A stretch of 64,000 nt of DNA from Thiobacillus denitrificans (lineage in GTDB: Bacteria > Pseudomonadota > Gammaproteobacteria > Burkholderiales > Thiobacillaceae). Positions 5,265 to 47,086 of this stretch are shown piece by piece; position 1 is the stretch's first letter, and each line of letters opens with the position of its first letter. The position numbers and the translations under genes were made by a program. The DNA is taken from contig DYIY01000001.1 of the NCBI GenBank assembly GCA_020723405.1, positions 124,001-188,000 on the forward strand. The letters are read 5' to 3'. The notes under the pieces are model-generated. The model searched no databases and was not told the origin of the DNA. It saw only the letters and a list, made by a program, of their open reading frames with translations.

Positions 5265-5588
5265 ATGGAAACCTTGTTCCTGGGCGAGATCGTCATCCGC
5301 GGGGTGACGAGCCACGGCCGCCCCTTCCGACCCAGCGACTGGGCTGAGCGACTGGCCAGCGTGGCTTCCCACGTGGGCCGGGACAACCGTCTCAACTATT
5401 CGCCCCACGTGCGCCCGGTGACCCGGGATGGGGTGCGCTGCGTGGTCATCGACCGGGCCCTGGAGCGCCGGGACTCCCGGCTCTACCGTTTCCTGCTGGA
5501 TTTCGCCCGGGAAAACGACCTGCAGATCTGCACCGGACGCCAGGAAGAACGGGACTGCGGTCCCGGGCAGGGTGAGTCCGGCAGCTGA
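5265..5588 (+). CDS. DUF3579 family protein
   Basis: 107 residues from the ATG at 5265; a TTG at 5220 would add 15 residues. The core GVTSHGRPFRPSDWAERLA and SPHVRPVTRDGVRCVVIDRAL match DUF3579, a family largely confined to Betaproteobacteria with no assigned function. A weak AGGAG lies 13 bases upstream. The tail after GRQEERD is low-complexity. Divergent from ppa, convergent with rpsT. Confidence 0.72.
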   Translation: METLFLGEIVIRGVTSHGRPFRPSDWAERLASVASHVGRDNRLNYSPHVRPVTRDGVRCVVIDRALERRDSRLYRFLLDFARENDLQICTGRQEERDCGPGQGESGS

Positions 5589-5590
5589 AA

Positions 5591-5619
5591 AAGCAAAACC
5601 GCCCGGCGAACCGGGCGGT
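5591..5619 (-). terminator. Rho-independent terminator of rpsT
   Basis: Nine-base-pair GC stem ACCGCCCGG/CCGGGCGGT at 5598-5606 and 5611-5619 with a CGAA (+ strand) tetraloop. Read on the minus strand it is followed by TTTTGCTTTTT, so it serves rpsT. The plus-strand side has no T-tract. Confidence 0.85.
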
Positions 5620-5645
5620 CTTCACGAAAACAGCAGGCGTGCCGT

Positions 5646-5909
5646 TCAGGCCATGGCCTTGATGGCACCAGCCAGACGGCTCTTGTGCCGGGCGGCCTTG
5701 TTCTTGTGCACGATCTTCTTGTCGGCCAGACTGTCCATGACCGACATGTTCTCGTTCAGGGCGGCCTGGGCGGCAGCCTTGTCGCCAGCCTCGATCGCCT
5801 TGCGAACCTTCTTGACCGCAGTCCGGTAGGCCGAGCGCTGGGCCATGTTGTGCAGCCGCTGGACGGCGCCCTGGCGGGCACGCTTCTTGGCCTGTGCGGT
5901 GTTAGCCAT
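5646..5909 (-). CDS. rpsT: 30S ribosomal protein S20
   Basis: 87 residues, standard length. The N-terminus [13 protein letters not shown] and the Lys/Arg-rich helical composition identify S20, which binds 16S rRNA in the small-subunit body. AAGGAG lies 7 bases before the ATG. It is a monocistronic gene with its own promoter and terminator, divergent from murJ as is common in proteobacteria. Confidence 0.97.
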
Positions 5910-41228: not shown

Positions 41229-42560
41229 TCAGGCTGCCTCGGCGAAGCGGCCCTCAGCGTGGCGGGCCGCGGCTTCCGCCTTGCGGGCATACCACTTCTC
41301 CGCTTCCTCGTCCCAGCCATCCATGCGGATGTAGGGATTGGTGCGGGGATGCACGACCATGTTGGGGTCGATCTCCAGACCGAGTCCTTCCAGGAAGTTG
41401 ACCAGACCGATGCGTTCGATCATCTCGCCGGTACGTTCGTGGTCCAGGGCATTCTCGGCGAAGAAATCCAGCACGCCCCGGGCCAGCTCGTTGAGCCTGT
41501 CGAAGTCCGCGTCGGATTCCAGCTTCATGAAGGGGATGATGACCGTACCCAGGGTGGCACCGATCTTCAGCACCCCCTTGCCGCCCACCAGGATGGTCAC
41601 GCCCTTGTCCCGGCCGGGCAGCAGGGCCCCGGGCATGACGTTCAGGCAGTGCATGCAGCGCACGCAGTTGTGGTTGTCGATGGTCATCTCGGTGGCCTCG
41701 GCCACCCGCAGCACGGTTTCATGGGGTTGCGCCGGCCTGCCGGCATCGCGCAGGGTGATGGCCTTGGTGGGGCACAGGCTCACCACCATGTTCACCAGAT
41801 CGTTCATGGAATGGCTGGCCATCCAGGCGTCGGCGATGGTCTGGTCGGCACGTATGTTGTCCTTCCAGGTGCCGATGGTGGCCATGTCGGAACGCTGGAT
41901 GGCGTTGACGCAGTCGTTGGGGCAGCCGGAGAACTTGAATTTGAATTTGTAGGGCAGGGACGGCCGGTGCATGTCGTCCAGGTTGCCGTTGATGACGGTG
42001 CGCAGGGCCCGGGCCTCGTCGTAGCAGGACATTTCGCAACGGGCCGCCCCCACGCAGGACATGGACGTGCGCAAGGAAGGACCGGCGCCGCCCAGGTCGA
42101 AACCGAGTGCGTTCAGACCATCGAAGGCCTGCTGCACGTTCTCACTGCGGATGCCCTGGAACATGATGTCGCCGGACTGGCCATGGAAGGCGATGAGGCC
42201 GGAGCCCCCGGCCGCCACCCAGGTATCCGCCAGCTTGCGCAGCAGGTCTGCACTGTAGTGCATGCCCGCCGGAGGCTGCACGCGCAGGGTGTGGAACTCG
42301 GCCGCCTCGGGGAAGACGGGCTTGCCCTGGTCGTCCTTGAGTTCGGTAAAGCGGGGAATGATGCCGGCGCCATAACCGATGACTCCCACGGTGCCGCCCT
42401 TCCAGTAGCCGGCCCGGTCCCGATAGGACGTTTCCAACTGGCCCAGCAGGTCGGTCATCATGGGATTTTCCCGGGCCAGGCGTTTGAGGCCGGTAACGAA
42501 GGAAGGCCAGGGGCCCGCTTCCAGTTGGTCCAGGTAGGGAGTGGCAGGCATGGGTTTCAT
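41229..42560 (-). CDS. dsrA: Dissimilatory sulfite reductase alpha subunit, unaccompanied by dsrB
   Basis: 443 residues. Siroheme/[4Fe-4S] cysteines in SCVGAARCEMSC (C169, C175) and SGCPNDC (C213, C217). An inserted ferredoxin domain uses C263 (SLCPT) and C299/C302/C305 (CVRCMHC). GQSGDIMFQG, GFDLGGAG and YKFKFKFSGCPNDC match DsrA rather than DsrB. DsrAB normally forms an alpha2-beta2 enzyme reducing sulfite, or in sulfur oxidisers running in reverse. No dsrB, dsrC or dsrE/F/H lies nearby: downstream is the VOC gene, upstream the subtilase. GGAGA ribosome site 8-9 bases before the ATG. Confidence 0.88.
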   Translation of the reverse strand: MKPMPATPYLDQLEAGPWPSFVTGLKRLARENPMMTDLLGQLETSYRDRAGYWKGGTVGVIGYGAGIIPRFTELKDDQGKPVFPEAAEFHTLRVQPPAGMHYSADLLRKLADTWVAAGGSGLIAFHGQSGDIMFQGIRSENVQQAFDGLNALGFDLGGAGPSLRTSMSCVGAARCEMSCYDEARALRTVINGNLDDMHRPSLPYKFKFKFSGCPNDCVNAIQRSDMATIGTWKDNIRADQTIADAWMASHSMNDLVNMVVSLCPTKAITLRDAGRPAQPHETVLRVAEATEMTIDNHNCVRCMHCLNVMPGALLPGRDKGVTILVGGKGVLKIGATLGTVIIPFMKLESDADFDRLNELARGVLDFFAENALDHERTGEMIERIGLVNFLEGLGLEIDPNMVVHPRTNPYIRMDGWDEEAEKWYARKAEAAARHAEGRFAEAA

Positions 42561-42646
42561 GGGACGCTCTCCGGATGATCAGGCTATTACCATAGCTTTT
42601 TGATCAAGTATTGCCAGGGGAGTTCTCGTCTTGCGGCGGACGCGCC

Positions 42647-42671
42647 GGCCCGGTCAAACGGCTACCGGGCC
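42647..42671 (-). terminator. GC hairpin after the subtilase gene
   Basis: GGCCCGGT/ACCGGGCC with a 9-base loop, about 50 bases past the peptidase stop in its direction. No T-tract, so a weak or Rho-assisted terminator at best. Confidence 0.3.
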
Positions 42672-42718
42672 ACCCCGGGGGCGGTCCGGGCCGTCAGCAA
42701 CCGGCCGGCCAGGCCCGC

Positions 42719-44698
42719 TTAGAAGCGGCGGTTCCAGCCCAGGGTCAGATGGGCGCTTTCCTGGCCCGCCAGGCCGGCGGCGTTGGCCTTGTATTCCAGG
42801 CTCAGGCCGGCCCTGCCCAATTTGCCGGCAGGCCGGGTGTAGTCGAGGGCCAGCACGTATTCCGCTTCACCGCCGGCCAGATCCACCCGCCGGGTGGAAT
42901 AGGTGGCGTTCTGGTTCTGGTCGTAGCTGGCGAGTTCCAGCGTGGCCGAACCGCCGATGGCCTTCAGGGACTGGCTCAGGGACAGGCCCAGGCGGTCATG
43001 GGGGGCGAACAGGTCCCGGCCGTCCAGATTCAGGCTGAAGCCCCATACCGGCATGTCGCTATAGCCCAGGACCAGACCCGAACCCCGGCCACCTTCCACC
43101 AGGCCCAGGGTGGCAGTGGCGCTGGCTTGCCAACGGCCAGCCAGGCTGGCTTGGCGGGTGGCGCTGACGAACATTTCCCGGCCGTCGCCGAAGTGCAGCA
43201 CGCCGCTCTGGGAAGCCCCCATGAACTGCTCGTGTTCCGTGACCAGCCCGGCGTTGATCACCCAGGCACCGGCACCGTAATTGAGGCTCAGGCCGCTGGC
43301 GCCAGGTTGACTGCCGTTGACCGGGACGGCGTCCAGAGGCCGGCTGGAAAACAGCCCCAGCTTCAGGGTGGCGCTGATCCGGTTGCTCATGAACAGGGCG
43401 TCACCGTCCTGGAAGCCCAGAAACGGCACGGCACCGGCACTGACTCCGGAGACCAGGGCATCCGCGCCGGCCCCATAGGCCAGTTGGAAGCGTTCATCAC
43501 CCGCCACGGCCGGCTGGGCAAACAGGGTCTGCAGCCGGTGGTCCAGACTGGGTTCGCTGGCGGGGGCGAGCAAATCCGTGGTGGCGACCGTGAAGTTCCG
43601 CTGGTAGGCATCCAGGCCGGCGAAATCCAGGCGACCGGCGGCGGCCAGGCTGCTGATGGCGGGTGCCAGGCTGGCAGGCAAGGTGGAACTGGCCACGGGC
43701 ACCGACCGGCTGCCGCTGCTGGCGGCGGTTTTCAACTGCCCCACCGGAGCCAGGGCGGCCTTCACGTTGAGCAGGCCATGGCCATAGACGCTGTCCACGC
43801 CCCTCCGGCCCAGGTCGGTGGCGGTGTCGAGCAGGATGTTCGCCGTGTCCTTGGCGCTCAGCTTGGGCCAGTAGCCCATAAGCAGGGCGGCGGCGCCAGA
43901 CACCATGGGCGCCGCCATGGAGGTGCCGGACATGTAGTAGTAATTGCTGTCCATGTAGGTGGAGACGATGTCCACCCCGGGGGCCACCAGGTAGAAATAG
44001 CGGGTATCGCCGGCCCGGTTGGAAAAACTGGCGATTCTGTTGTTTTCGTCCACGGCGCCCACCGCCAGGATCTGCCCCTTGGCCCAGGCCTGGGTGGCAT
44101 GGCGGGCGGGCCAGTCGGGATTGGCGGCACCGTCGTTGCCGGCGGCGAAGACCAGCAGGGCCCCCTTGTTCACCGCCCCCTGGAGATAGGTCTTGTCGCC
44201 TGACCAGGCGGCACCGGTGTAGCCCAGGGAGCCGTTGATGATGCGGGCACCGTCGTTGGCCGCCGTAAGAATGGCCTTGTCCACATCCACCAGACTGCCG
44301 CCGCCGTCACTGTCGAGGGCCTTGTAGATCAGCAGGCTGGCCTTGGGGGCGATCCCCATGGAACCACGGCCGTTGGCCGCCGCGCCGATGATGCCCGCCA
44401 CGTGGGAACCGTGGCCGTTGTCGTCGCCACAGGCGCTTCCCACTACGCCGCCGGACACACTGCGGCATTTGCCGATGCGCCCGCTGAATTCGCTGCTCGA
44501 CAGGTTGATGCCCGTATCCACGATGCCCACCTTCACCCCCTTGCCAAAGAGATTCAAGTCGTAGGCGGACTTGGCCTTGATGGCCTGGTGCCACCAATCG
44601 TCGGCAAAGGTGTAATCGCTGCTGGGAGTCCAGGCGGCAAGGGCGGACCCCGCCAGATTGGCAAGGGCGAGGGCGAGAACGCTGGGCCTGACGCGCAT
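42719..44698 (-). CDS. S8 (subtilisin-like) surface protease with C-terminal beta domain
   Basis: 659 residues; GAGGAG 7 bases before the ATG at 44698. Signal peptide 1-22 (ends SALA). Catalytic triad D61 (GIVDTGIN), H96 (NGHGSHVAG), S260 (SGTSMAAPM). After the about 310-residue protease domain comes a linker and an about 280-residue strand-rich region ending TLGWNRRF, whose terminal Phe suggests an outer-membrane barrel, i.e. an autotransporter-like layout. It is preceded by a c-di-GMP-I riboswitch, so its expression should follow the motile/sessile signal. Confidence 0.88.
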   Translation of the reverse strand: MRVRPSVLALALANLAGSALAAWTPSSDYTFADDWWHQAIKAKSAYDLNLFGKGVKVGIVDTGINLSSSEFSGRIGKCRSVSGGVVGSACGDDNGHGSHVAGIIGAAANGRGSMGIAPKASLLIYKALDSDGGGSLVDVDKAILTAANDGARIINGSLGYTGAAWSGDKTYLQGAVNKGALLVFAAGNDGAANPDWPARHATQAWAKGQILAVGAVDENNRIASFSNRAGDTRYFYLVAPGVDIVSTYMDSNYYYMSGTSMAAPMVSGAAALLMGYWPKLSAKDTANILLDTATDLGRRGVDSVYGHGLLNVKAALAPVGQLKTAASSGSRSVPVASSTLPASLAPAISSLAAAGRLDFAGLDAYQRNFTVATTDLLAPASEPSLDHRLQTLFAQPAVAGDERFQLAYGAGADALVSGVSAGAVPFLGFQDGDALFMSNRISATLKLGLFSSRPLDAVPVNGSQPGASGLSLNYGAGAWVINAGLVTEHEQFMGASQSGVLHFGDGREMFVSATRQASLAGRWQASATATLGLVEGGRGSGLVLGYSDMPVWGFSLNLDGRDLFAPHDRLGLSLSQSLKAIGGSATLELASYDQNQNATYSTRRVDLAGGEAEYVLALDYTRPAGKLGRAGLSLEYKANAAGLAGQESAHLTLGWNRRF

Positions 44699-44739
44699 GT
44701 GCGGCTCCTCGATCTGGCCTGGGGGGCGCACGGCGCTCT

Positions 44740-44836
44740 CCAGCAGCCCCGCTGCCGTGGACCTGATCCAGAAGAATCAGGCCGTTAGGCCGGAAGCTTT
44801 GCGGCCCGCGCTTTCGCGTCGGTGTGCCTTTGTTGG
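44740..44836 (-). ncRNA. Cyclic di-GMP-I (GEMM-I) riboswitch
   Basis: Minus strand, 41 bases before the subtilase ATG. In order: a P2 hairpin closed by a GAAA tetraloop (CGCGAAAGCG), then GGGCCGCAAAGC, TTCCGGCCTAA (tetraloop-receptor side of P3), the P3 stem, and AGCGGGGCTGCTGG. The GCAAAGC, TCCGGCCTAA and AGCGGGG blocks match the c-di-GMP-I consensus (Vc2 aptamer) in order and spacing. Outer P1 pairing CCAAC/GCTGG is short. Whether it switches transcription or translation is not clear; no terminator was seen. Confidence 0.85.
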
Positions 44837-45178
44837 AAACGGCGGAATCGCCACCGGGGGCAATTCCTCAAGCCGCATAACGGCAGGCAGCAACAAAACT
44901 TGAGGGCGGTTTACCGGCTTGCTGATGCGCTTCGACAAGGGCTGCCAGACCGCGACGGCACGGCGGAACTGGCAGGACAGGAGGTTGGGTAATGATCTGT
45001 TCAAGGGGCACCCTCTTGCGGTGAACCCGGTAATCCACCGCTTGCTGGGCATGGGGTAAGCCAATCCATATGGCCGAACACCTGGCCCTCCCCAAATCAC
45101 CGCCTCCTCACCGAATTCCTCCCCCACAATCATCGGTTCCAGAAGCCCTCTCTACCACCCACAGCAAGGAGCCTCCCC
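44837..45178. other. Intergenic region without a recognised gene
   Basis: 342 bases between the riboswitch and the AHSA1-type gene. Open frames here have no ribosome site and unnatural composition. The riboswitch promoter must lie here but no clear -35/-10 pair was found. CAAGGAG at 45167-45173 serves the next gene. Confidence 0.5.
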
Positions 45179-45619
45179 ATGAGCACCGTGCAACTCCATC
45201 GCGTTCTGCGCGCCACTCCGGACAAGCTCTACCGGGCCTTCCTGGACCCGGATGCCTTGGTCAAGTGGCTGCCGCCCAACGGCTTTACGGCGAAGGTCCA
45301 TCACCATGAGGCGCGGGTGGGTGGGGGTTTCAGGATGAGTTTCACCAACTTCGGCAGCGGCCACAGCCACAGTTTCGGTGGGACTTACCTGGAGTTGCGG
45401 CCCGGTGAGTTGCTGCGTTACACGGAAGTCTTCGACGACCCCGGCCTGCCGGGGCAGATGGTCACCACCGTCAGCCTGACGCCCGTGTCCTGCGGGACGG
45501 CCTTGCAGGTGGTCCAGGAAGGCATTCCCGAGGTGATTCCGACGGAGGCTTGCTACCTGGGGTGGCAGGAATCCCTGGTCTTGCTGGCCAAGCTGGTGGA
45601 GGCGGACATTCCGGATTGA
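45179..45619 (+). CDS. SRPBCC/AHSA1-type protein
   Basis: 146 residues. START-like fold of the AHSA1 (activator of Hsp90 ATPase homologue) group: RVLRATPDKLYRAFLDPDALVKWLPPNGF at the N-terminus, GGTYLELRPGELLRYTEVFDDP, and a C-terminal helix CYLGWQESLVLLAKLVEADIPD. These proteins bind hydrophobic ligands or act as accessory factors; ligand unknown. Good ribosome site. Confidence 0.85.
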   Translation: MSTVQLHRVLRATPDKLYRAFLDPDALVKWLPPNGFTAKVHHHEARVGGGFRMSFTNFGSGHSHSFGGTYLELRPGELLRYTEVFDDPGLPGQMVTTVSLTPVSCGTALQVVQEGIPEVIPTEACYLGWQESLVLLAKLVEADIPD

Positions 45620-45661
45620 CGGCCGGCCATGCTGCCAGGGGGGCTGTGCCCCGGTGGGGGG

Positions 45662-47086
45662 TCAGACCTTCGGCTTGCCGGGTTTGCCTTCCCGCAGGTG
45701 GCGGGGCAGGCGCTTCTGTTCCCGTTCTGCGGTACGGGTCTGGCGGGGGGTCAGGCTGGAAGCTTCGCGCTGCTCGAAGGGGTTGTAGTTGGCCTTGAAA
45801 TCCACCCGCAGGGGGGTGCCCTGGAGGTTGAAGGCGGTGCGGAAGACGTTTTCCAGGTAGCGCTTGTAGGCGTCGGGCATGCCTTCCAGGTGGTTGCCGT
45901 GGATGACGATGACCGGCGGGTTGTTGCCCCCCTGGTGGGCGTATTTGGGCTTGGGCCGGAAGTTGCCGGCCCGGGGGGGCTGGTGCTGGGCCACGGCTTC
46001 CTGGAGCACCCGGGTGAGGCGGGGGGTGGAAAGCTTGGCCATGGCGGCGGCGTAGGCTTCGTCCACGGACTTGAGCACGGCGCCCACACCGGTGCCCTTG
46101 AGGGCGGAGATGAAGTGGAAGCGGGCGAAGGTGAGGAAGTCCATCTTGCGGTCCAGTTCCCGCTTGATCTGTTCCCGCTGGTAGTTGTCCAGGTCGTCCC
46201 ACTTGTTGATGGCCACCACCAGGGCCCGCCCGGCTTCCAGGATGAAGCCGGCCAGGTGGGCGTCCTGGTCGGAGATTTCCTGGCGGGCGTCCAGCACCAG
46301 GACCACCACGTTGGCGTCCTCCACGGCCTGGAGGGTCTTGATGACGGAGAACTTTTCGATGGCTTCGGTGACCCGGCCCTTGCGCCGCACCCCGGCGGTG
46401 TCGATGAGGGTGTAGGGGCGGCCGTTGCGCTCGAAATCCACGTAGATGGAATCCCGGGTGGTGCCGGGTTGGTCGAAGGCGATGACCCGCTCTTCGCCGA
46501 CGAAGGTGTTCACCAGGGTGGACTTGCCCACGTTGGGCCGGCCGACGATGGCGATCTTGGGGTGGTCGTTGCCGCCGCCTTCGTCGGGTTCCGCCGGGAA
46601 GGGCTCCAGGGCCAGTTCCACCAGGTCCCGCACACCTTCGCCGTGGGCGCCGGACACGGCCAGGGGCTGGCCCAGGCCCAGTTCGTGGAATTCGGCGGTG
46701 ACCACGCCGGCGTTCATGCCTTCGGTCTTGTTGACCGCCAGGAGCACGGGACGGCCGGTCTGGCGCAGGCGCTGGGCGATGAGCTTGTCCTGGGGGGCGA
46801 GGCCGGTGCGGCCGTCCACCAGGAAGACGATCACGTCCCCTTCGGCAACAGCCTGGAGGGTCTGCTTGGCCATCTCGGCCAGGATGCCGGTGTCCGCCAC
46901 CGGCTCGAAACCGCCCGTGTCCACCACCAGGTAGGGCTTGCCGCCCACCTTGCCGTGGCCGTAATGGCGGTCCCGGGTGAGGCCGGGCAGGTCGTGGACC
47001 AGGGCATCCCGGGTCTTGGTGAGGCGGTTGAAGAGGGTGGACTTGCCGACGTTGGGCCGGCCGACCAGGACGAGGGTGGGTTTCAT
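45662..47086 (-). CDS. der: Ribosome-associated GTPase Der (EngA)
   Basis: 474 residues with two tandem G domains, each with P-loop [10 protein letters not shown] (near residues 9 and 187), DTGGFEP and DTAGVRRKG switches, and NKTEG/NKWDD base motifs. A KH-like C-terminal domain ends with a basic tail. Essential for 50S assembly. Last gene of the ispG-hisS-yfgM-bamB-der run, separated from bamB by an 81-base repeat-rich spacer. Confidence 0.97.

Follow-up and report, generated by a model that had tools for sequence, protein, structure and literature searches.

The S8 gene and the aptamer in its leader

The window analysed here is a stretch of 64 kb (64,000 nucleotides) of Thiobacillus denitrificans DNA. 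Its minus strand carries a gene (42719..44698) for an S8 subtilase of 659 aa with a putative signal peptide and a C-terminal beta domain, as judged from the sequence, the reading frame, the PF00082 match and structural models. Between this gene and a plus-strand AHSA1-type gene (45179) lies a c-di-GMP-I (GEMM-I) riboswitch aptamer (44739..44838, minus strand). The aptamer occupies the 5' leader of the S8 gene in the same orientation, an arrangement that recurs in 10 other loci. Its 3' end is separated by 40 nt from the ATG of the S8 gene (44698). This stretch (44699..44738, minus), the presumed expression platform, contains a Shine-Dalgarno-like GAGGAG (44705..44710, minus).

Both strands of the window were scanned with cmscan against 4227 Rfam families, and a single match exceeded its gathering threshold. 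This match, to RF01051 (c-di-GMP-I), runs from 44838 to 44739 on the minus strand, spans the full length of the model (1-87 of 87) and scores 60.0 bits, the cut-off being 35 bits (E 3.2e-9). The original prediction had proposed a GEMM-I aptamer at this place and named an Rfam GEMM-I covariance scan as the check; the scan bears the proposal out. The sequence blocks on which it was founded are all present on the minus strand and in the order given: the GAAA tetraloop (44815-44812), GCAAAGC (44802-44796), TCCGGCCTAA (44794-44785) and AGCGGGG (44753-44747). The tetraloop hairpin, the core helices and the G, A and C specificity positions that mark members of RF01051 are found in the window aptamer. 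Outside the Rfam structure line, a P1 helix of six pairs is proposed by eye between a 5' strand UUUCCA (44834..44839, minus) and a 3' strand UGGAGA (44737..44742, minus); an automatic helix pick over seven loci chose a different helix. Elsewhere in the window, a match to the Pseudomonas rnk leader (5587-5681, minus) stays below threshold (31.2 bits, cut-off 55) and is probably due to chance.

Behind the S8 gene lies dsrA (41229-42560, minus; TIGR02064, 497 bits), with no adjoining dsrB. The dsrB of the genome, preceded by another dsrA-like match, is located at G000:C36:106796-108934. An S8-dsrA operon was considered, and the two genes, with 158 bp between them and an AT-rich stretch before dsrA, were judged probably separate.

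The riboswitch-S8 pairing recurs in related genomes

In a set of 101 genomes, comprising the window's own and 100 relatives, 72 contain a c-di-GMP-I match. The 145 sites, one of which (G080) is below the cut-off, were listed with stricter filters at which weak sites are lost. S8 matches occur in 57 of the 101 genomes, with 116 S8 domains in total. Seven of the 145 sites lie within 1 kb upstream of an S8 domain on the same strand, and no site and domain are found within 1 kb in any other arrangement. Uniform placement would give about 0.03 pairs, with 2.5 Mb taken for genomes without an entered size and with genomes that are kin and hence non-independent. Seven pairs against this expectation rule out a chance association of riboswitch and S8 gene.

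Four further pairs are present in named contigs (L061, L069, L071 and L081; 70.5-78.7 bits with the Rfam model), and the S8 domain was confirmed in each. The S8 relatives from named contigs (n=80) were recovered with an alignment query, a protein-only scan having yielded none. Among them, model R1 finds five clear sites, one weak site (L062) and 74 sequences without a site. R1 was built partly from S8-linked sites, and Rfam, with which 20 of the 80 were scanned, also puts its five sites above the cut-off. Many of the 74 belong to distant phyla; the lack of a site in relatives was counted against control of the gene, as was its lack at the other S8 gene of the window's genome. The weak site (L062:2163-2262, plus) precedes a Noviherbaspirillum S8 relative and looks decayed (27.9 bits with R1, no Rfam match).

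With L060, which is the same contig and protein as G011, counted once, there are 11 distinct pairs: the window, L036, L038, L040, L044, L048, L059, L061, L069, L071 and L081. The gap from aptamer to start codon ranges from 40 to 153 nt with the starts chosen, alternatives being possible in L069, L044 and others. The pairing occurs in Rhodocyclaceae (L061), Betaproteobacteria (L071) and Pseudomonadota (L060, L069 and L081).

The aptamer helices are maintained among these sites. In the 11 S8-linked aptamers, 92.9% of the cells are paired, and covariation scores 0.464 compared with 0.180 after shuffling (0 of 500 shuffles as high), scored on a structure derived from an alignment that contains 7 of the 11 sites. 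Two-sided pair changes number 11, compared with 6.8 in shuffled alignments (6 of 500 as high). The helix pairs are likewise kept, with two-sided changes, across a set of 38 sites (97.1% of the cells paired, 0 of 500 shuffles as high).

Two protease architectures carry the riboswitch

The riboswitch-linked proteases fall into different architectures. The window protein, L036, L038, L061, L069, L071 and L081 have S8 as their only Pfam domain, L038 with one additional match below the cut-off. All members of this group end in Phe except L061, which is cut by the contig end. In L040, L044 and L048, a fervidolysin-like prodomain and the S8 domain are combined with Big_7 domains. L059 combines an S8 domain with a sub-threshold prodomain match (15.5 of 21) and further weak matches towards the C-terminus.

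In a tree of 43 S8 domains the two architecture groups stand apart. The riboswitch label requires 5 changes on this tree, at least 3 of which are forced by well-supported branches, and 0 of 500 shuffles are as low. A single origin of the pairing was rejected because of these changes. For the tree, the weak site L062 was scored as lacking a riboswitch, 301 of 1036 columns were kept, and some domain pieces are over-long (up to 583 aa). The label changes fit several gains or losses; the tree does not prove separate gains.

Probable control of the S8 gene by its leader

Because the pairing is conserved in other genomes, control of the S8 protease by c-di-GMP is likely. Read from sequence, it is probable that c-di-GMP controls the S8 gene through its leader, whichever the sign of the response. 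The original prediction had placed the protease directly under c-di-GMP. Of this, the aptamer in the leader is present and its pairing with the gene is kept elsewhere, and the control itself becomes a likely consequence. Counted on the other side, no sigma-70-like promoter was found in 42000-46000.

Binding of c-di-GMP, expected from the aptamer family and the specificity positions, would stabilise the aptamer and the P1 helix. No terminator-like hairpin with a U-run was found in the window leader stretch (44699..44738), and a terminator-like element was found in 0 of 7 S8 leaders compared with 12 of the 141 leaders in the scan, the four named-contig leaders lying outside it. Since these seven S8 leaders have no such hairpin, translational control is the simplest guess. 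The Vc2 riboswitch of Vibrio cholerae, which has a class I aptamer like that of the window, is described as a translational switch in PMC9262584; by this analogy, control of the S8 gene is probably translational. Given Vc2 and the lack of a terminator, the stabilised aptamer and P1 would be expected to alter ribosome access to the Shine-Dalgarno sequence, which lies 28 nt downstream of the aptamer.

Folding of the leader, computed without ligand or tertiary contacts, favours structures other than the aptamer, which was counted against control. For the window leader, the ensemble energy rises from -90.7 to -80.9 when the aptamer is enforced, a penalty of about 10 kcal/mol. The accessibility of the window Shine-Dalgarno sequence is 0.37 in the free leader, 0.19 with the aptamer enforced and 0.18 with P1 enforced. 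With another Shine-Dalgarno window and the other P1 helix, the values are 0.29, 0.22 and 0.21. Over seven loci, the corresponding changes are small and have no common sign; this too was counted against control, and reading the sign of the switch from folding was dropped.

The preferred sign, OFF at high c-di-GMP, is chosen solely by analogy with Vc2 and with the ZmpI switch of Clostridioides (C.) difficile. A real c-di-GMP-I riboswitch may sit in the leader with the opposite sign, an ON switch nested within the same explanation, in which high c-di-GMP raises the protease, for example for adhesin maturation or protein feeding in biofilms. Folding leaves the sign undecided, and according to PMC6200980 the class I site Cdi-1-1 of C. 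difficile raises its gene more than 30-fold. Against an ON switch, the same paper describes the class I switches of C. difficile as generally OFF, PMC9262584 terms Vc2 a translational OFF switch, and in the window the Shine-Dalgarno accessibility drops weakly on enforcement of the aptamer under both settings. We regard an ON switch as a genuine possibility, though not the one we would choose.

A predicted surface protease with a C-terminal beta domain

The S8 domain of the window protein spans residues 52-308 (PF00082 Peptidase_S8, 178.2 bits, cut-off 21.8). Residues D61, H96 and S260, which we take to be the S8 catalytic residues, are invariant in 17 of 17 aligned sequences. The N-terminus reads as a signal peptide when judged by eye. 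Subtilisins are among the top 50 Foldseek matches listed for the full AlphaFold2 model, which has a mean pLDDT of 74.7 and a pTM of 0.72.

A linker and the C-terminal beta domain, which ends in Phe, make up residues 381-659 (42722..43558, minus). The full model contains 14 strand elements in residues 433-657, one of them just four residues long. When residues 381-659 were modelled alone (mean pLDDT 75.0, pTM 0.69), the strand pattern was nearly identical; 10-residue blocks past residue 130 of the piece have pLDDT values of 87-95, and earlier blocks have values of 31-78. Across the two models, the domain thus consists of 12-14 successive strands, of which the earliest are of low confidence. Of the 17 aligned sequences, 16 are complete, the window's included, and all 16 end in Phe (the remaining one, L061, being cut as noted).

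Together, the models suggest that the S8 protein likely has a C-terminal beta barrel and is probably an autotransporter-like protease of the cell surface. The protease would be exported, its barrel would insert into the outer membrane, and the subtilisin-type domain would be displayed, where it could trim or release surface proteins in step with c-di-GMP. The protease of the original prediction is thus recovered with its S8 domain and signal-peptide-like N-terminus, and its probable barrel takes the form of a predicted beta domain ending in Phe that no Pfam autotransporter family recognises.

An enzyme that is secreted or periplasmic without a surface anchor, with a C-terminal domain that is no barrel, is unlikely in view of the successive strands in both models and the conserved terminal Phe. 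Several comparisons nevertheless lean towards it. The S8 protein has no match to a Pfam autotransporter family, and no curated-family match of the kind that defines type V autotransporters was found. For the final 279 residues, the best Pfam hit (14.8 bits against a cut-off of 27) is not credible, and a profile of the C-terminal piece has no match among PDB sequences at E up to 1. Moreover, the second riboswitch-linked S8 group has Ig-like or other C-termini.

Integrity and ligand class of the aptamer

If the riboswitch had decayed and lost its hold on the gene, a low score would be expected; among the five c-di-GMP-I sites of the window's genome (86.7, 81.8, 74.4, 60.0 and 52.1 bits), the window site, at 60.0 bits, is second lowest. 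The decayed-looking site before the Noviherbaspirillum relative and the alternative fold favoured by the ligand-free leader point the same way. Against this, the window aptamer forms a standard pair at each of the 22 pairs of the Rfam structure line, its specificity positions are preserved, and the S8-linked set shows paired changes. A relic is therefore very unlikely.

Alignment to RF01051 identifies G at 44828, A at 44800 and C at 44743 (all minus), which we take to be positions G20, the ligand-selectivity position, A47 and C92 in Vc2 numbering, and presumably the set expected for c-di-GMP. The same three nucleotides occur in 11 of 11 S8-linked sites. In cGAMP (GEMM-Ib) riboswitches position 20 is A, and the window has G at 44828. 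The specificity positions thus fit c-di-GMP, from which we infer that this is the ligand bound. The genome contains 58 GGDEF matches. Sensing of another dinucleotide (3',3'-cGAMP) or membership of the variant family c-di-GMP-I-GGC is highly improbable: RF03167 matches the window site in a permissive scan with 54.1 bits and a better E-value than RF01051, and two S8-linked sites exceed its cut-off of 59 (L048, 67.1 bits; L040, 65.6 bits), but the window site is below that cut-off and higher in bits with RF01051, and G, A and C stand at the three positions, by the numbering assumed here, in the window and all S8-linked sites. One c-di-GMP-I site of the wider set (L020:1501-1586, minus) has A at the G20 position of the alignment and would be of the cGAMP type by the same numbering. 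In PMC9262584, G20 of Vc2 is termed a selectivity factor.

Genes downstream of other c-di-GMP-I sites

The five sites of the window's genome precede a Big_9/cadherin-like secreted protein with four such repeats, two DUF1631 genes, a phytase-like esterase and the S8 gene. Across the genome set, a simple rule assigned a downstream frame to 141 of the 145 sites (for four no frame was assigned, and some assignments are doubtful). The downstream Pfam kinds include DUF1631 (55), Tt1218-like pilins (11), S8 (7) and PilX (6), with N_methyl at 10 of the 141, overlapping with the Tt1218-like kind; among NCBIfam kinds, PacR (52) and PilV (11) are found. DUF1631 (the NCBIfam PacR family) is the commonest neighbour, for example at L002 and L003, and no paper linking it with c-di-GMP was found in a search of open-licence papers. 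Five genomes each contain a pair of c-di-GMP-I sites on the same strand at a spacing of 1.6-1.8 kb, with a small pilin-like gene following each site (L216/L231, L217/L242, L211/L256, L167/L259 and L187/L264); in the two pairs checked, the neighbours are PilX and a Tt1218-like pilin. At L267 (G088:C2), a strong terminator-like hairpin includes the 3' end of the aptamer, which would suit a transcriptional ON switch; the downstream gene has no Pfam match.

Comparison with known systems

The riboswitch is confirmed, its control of the protease is likely, and the arrangement recurs in related proteobacteria, in which c-di-GMP probably controls the cutting of surface proteins, to judge from the gene arrangements. 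A riboswitch-controlled secreted protease is a known kind, whereas searches of open-licence PMC papers turned up no c-di-GMP riboswitch before an S8 protease and no such recurrent surface-protease branch. Should the reading hold, Gram-negatives would have c-di-GMP setting surface-protease levels through the mRNA, a layer apart from LapD/LapG, and the recurrence offers 11 loci at which both the direction of these switches and their substrates could be tested.

SphB1 and NalP are S8 autotransporters. With these, EprS and fusolisin, the window protein shares an S8 domain on the N-terminal side, an apparent signal peptide and a C-terminal beta domain. It differs in scoring far below the curated cut-offs of the EprS and fusolisin models (93.3 of 1700 bits and 17.7 of 999 bits, respectively) and in a beta domain that Pfam does not recognise.

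In the LapD/LapG system, c-di-GMP acts post-translationally by sequestering a periplasmic cysteine protease. The likeness to the window system lies in c-di-GMP control of surface proteolysis; the difference is that control in the window would act on the mRNA, and that the window protease is an S8 enzyme and not a C93 cysteine protease of the LapG type. A LapG-like gene is present in the window's genome (L292:787-1971, G000:C28), in which an AhpC/thioredoxin-like N-terminal part is fused to a C93 domain (45.7 bits), and adjoins a LapD_MoxY_N-GGDEF gene. Because these LapG-like and LapD-like genes adjoin, the LapD/LapG route and the riboswitch route probably coexist in this genome. Their presence weakens the contrast drawn in the original prediction with LapD/LapG as the familiar route.

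That contrast was also overstated, since a class I switch already governs a protease in C. difficile. There, Cdi-1-12 switches off the secreted protease ZmpI/PPEP-1, with a table value for zmpI of -62.61, which we read as a fold change (PMC6200980). The two substrates of ZmpI/PPEP-1 are under class II c-di-GMP switches, and protease and substrates are inversely controlled, according to PMC6200980 and PMC11477304. As an adhesin-like protein and the protease share the c-di-GMP signal in the window's genome, a similar circuit is suggested. In such a scheme, c-di-GMP-I switches would have been recruited repeatedly to differing subtilases in these proteobacteria, and an mRNA-level branch beside LapD/LapG would act on riboswitch-controlled surface proteins, here the cadherin/Ig-like protein with four repeats, so that the adhesin/ZmpI circuit of C. 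difficile would have its counterpart in Gram-negatives. We offer this full scheme as a speculation, and a doubtful one.

Vc2 resembles the window in its aptamer and differs in its target gene. Of the systems compared here, Cdi-1-12/ZmpI of C. difficile is the nearest, the likeness being a class I switch in the leader of a gene for an exported protease directed at surface proteins, in the window by prediction. ZmpI is a zinc metalloprotease of a Gram-positive bacterium, whereas the window encodes an S8 serine protease with a predicted surface location and a probable outer-membrane barrel. With no terminator found in the window leader, the level of control probably differs from that of Cdi-1-12 as well.
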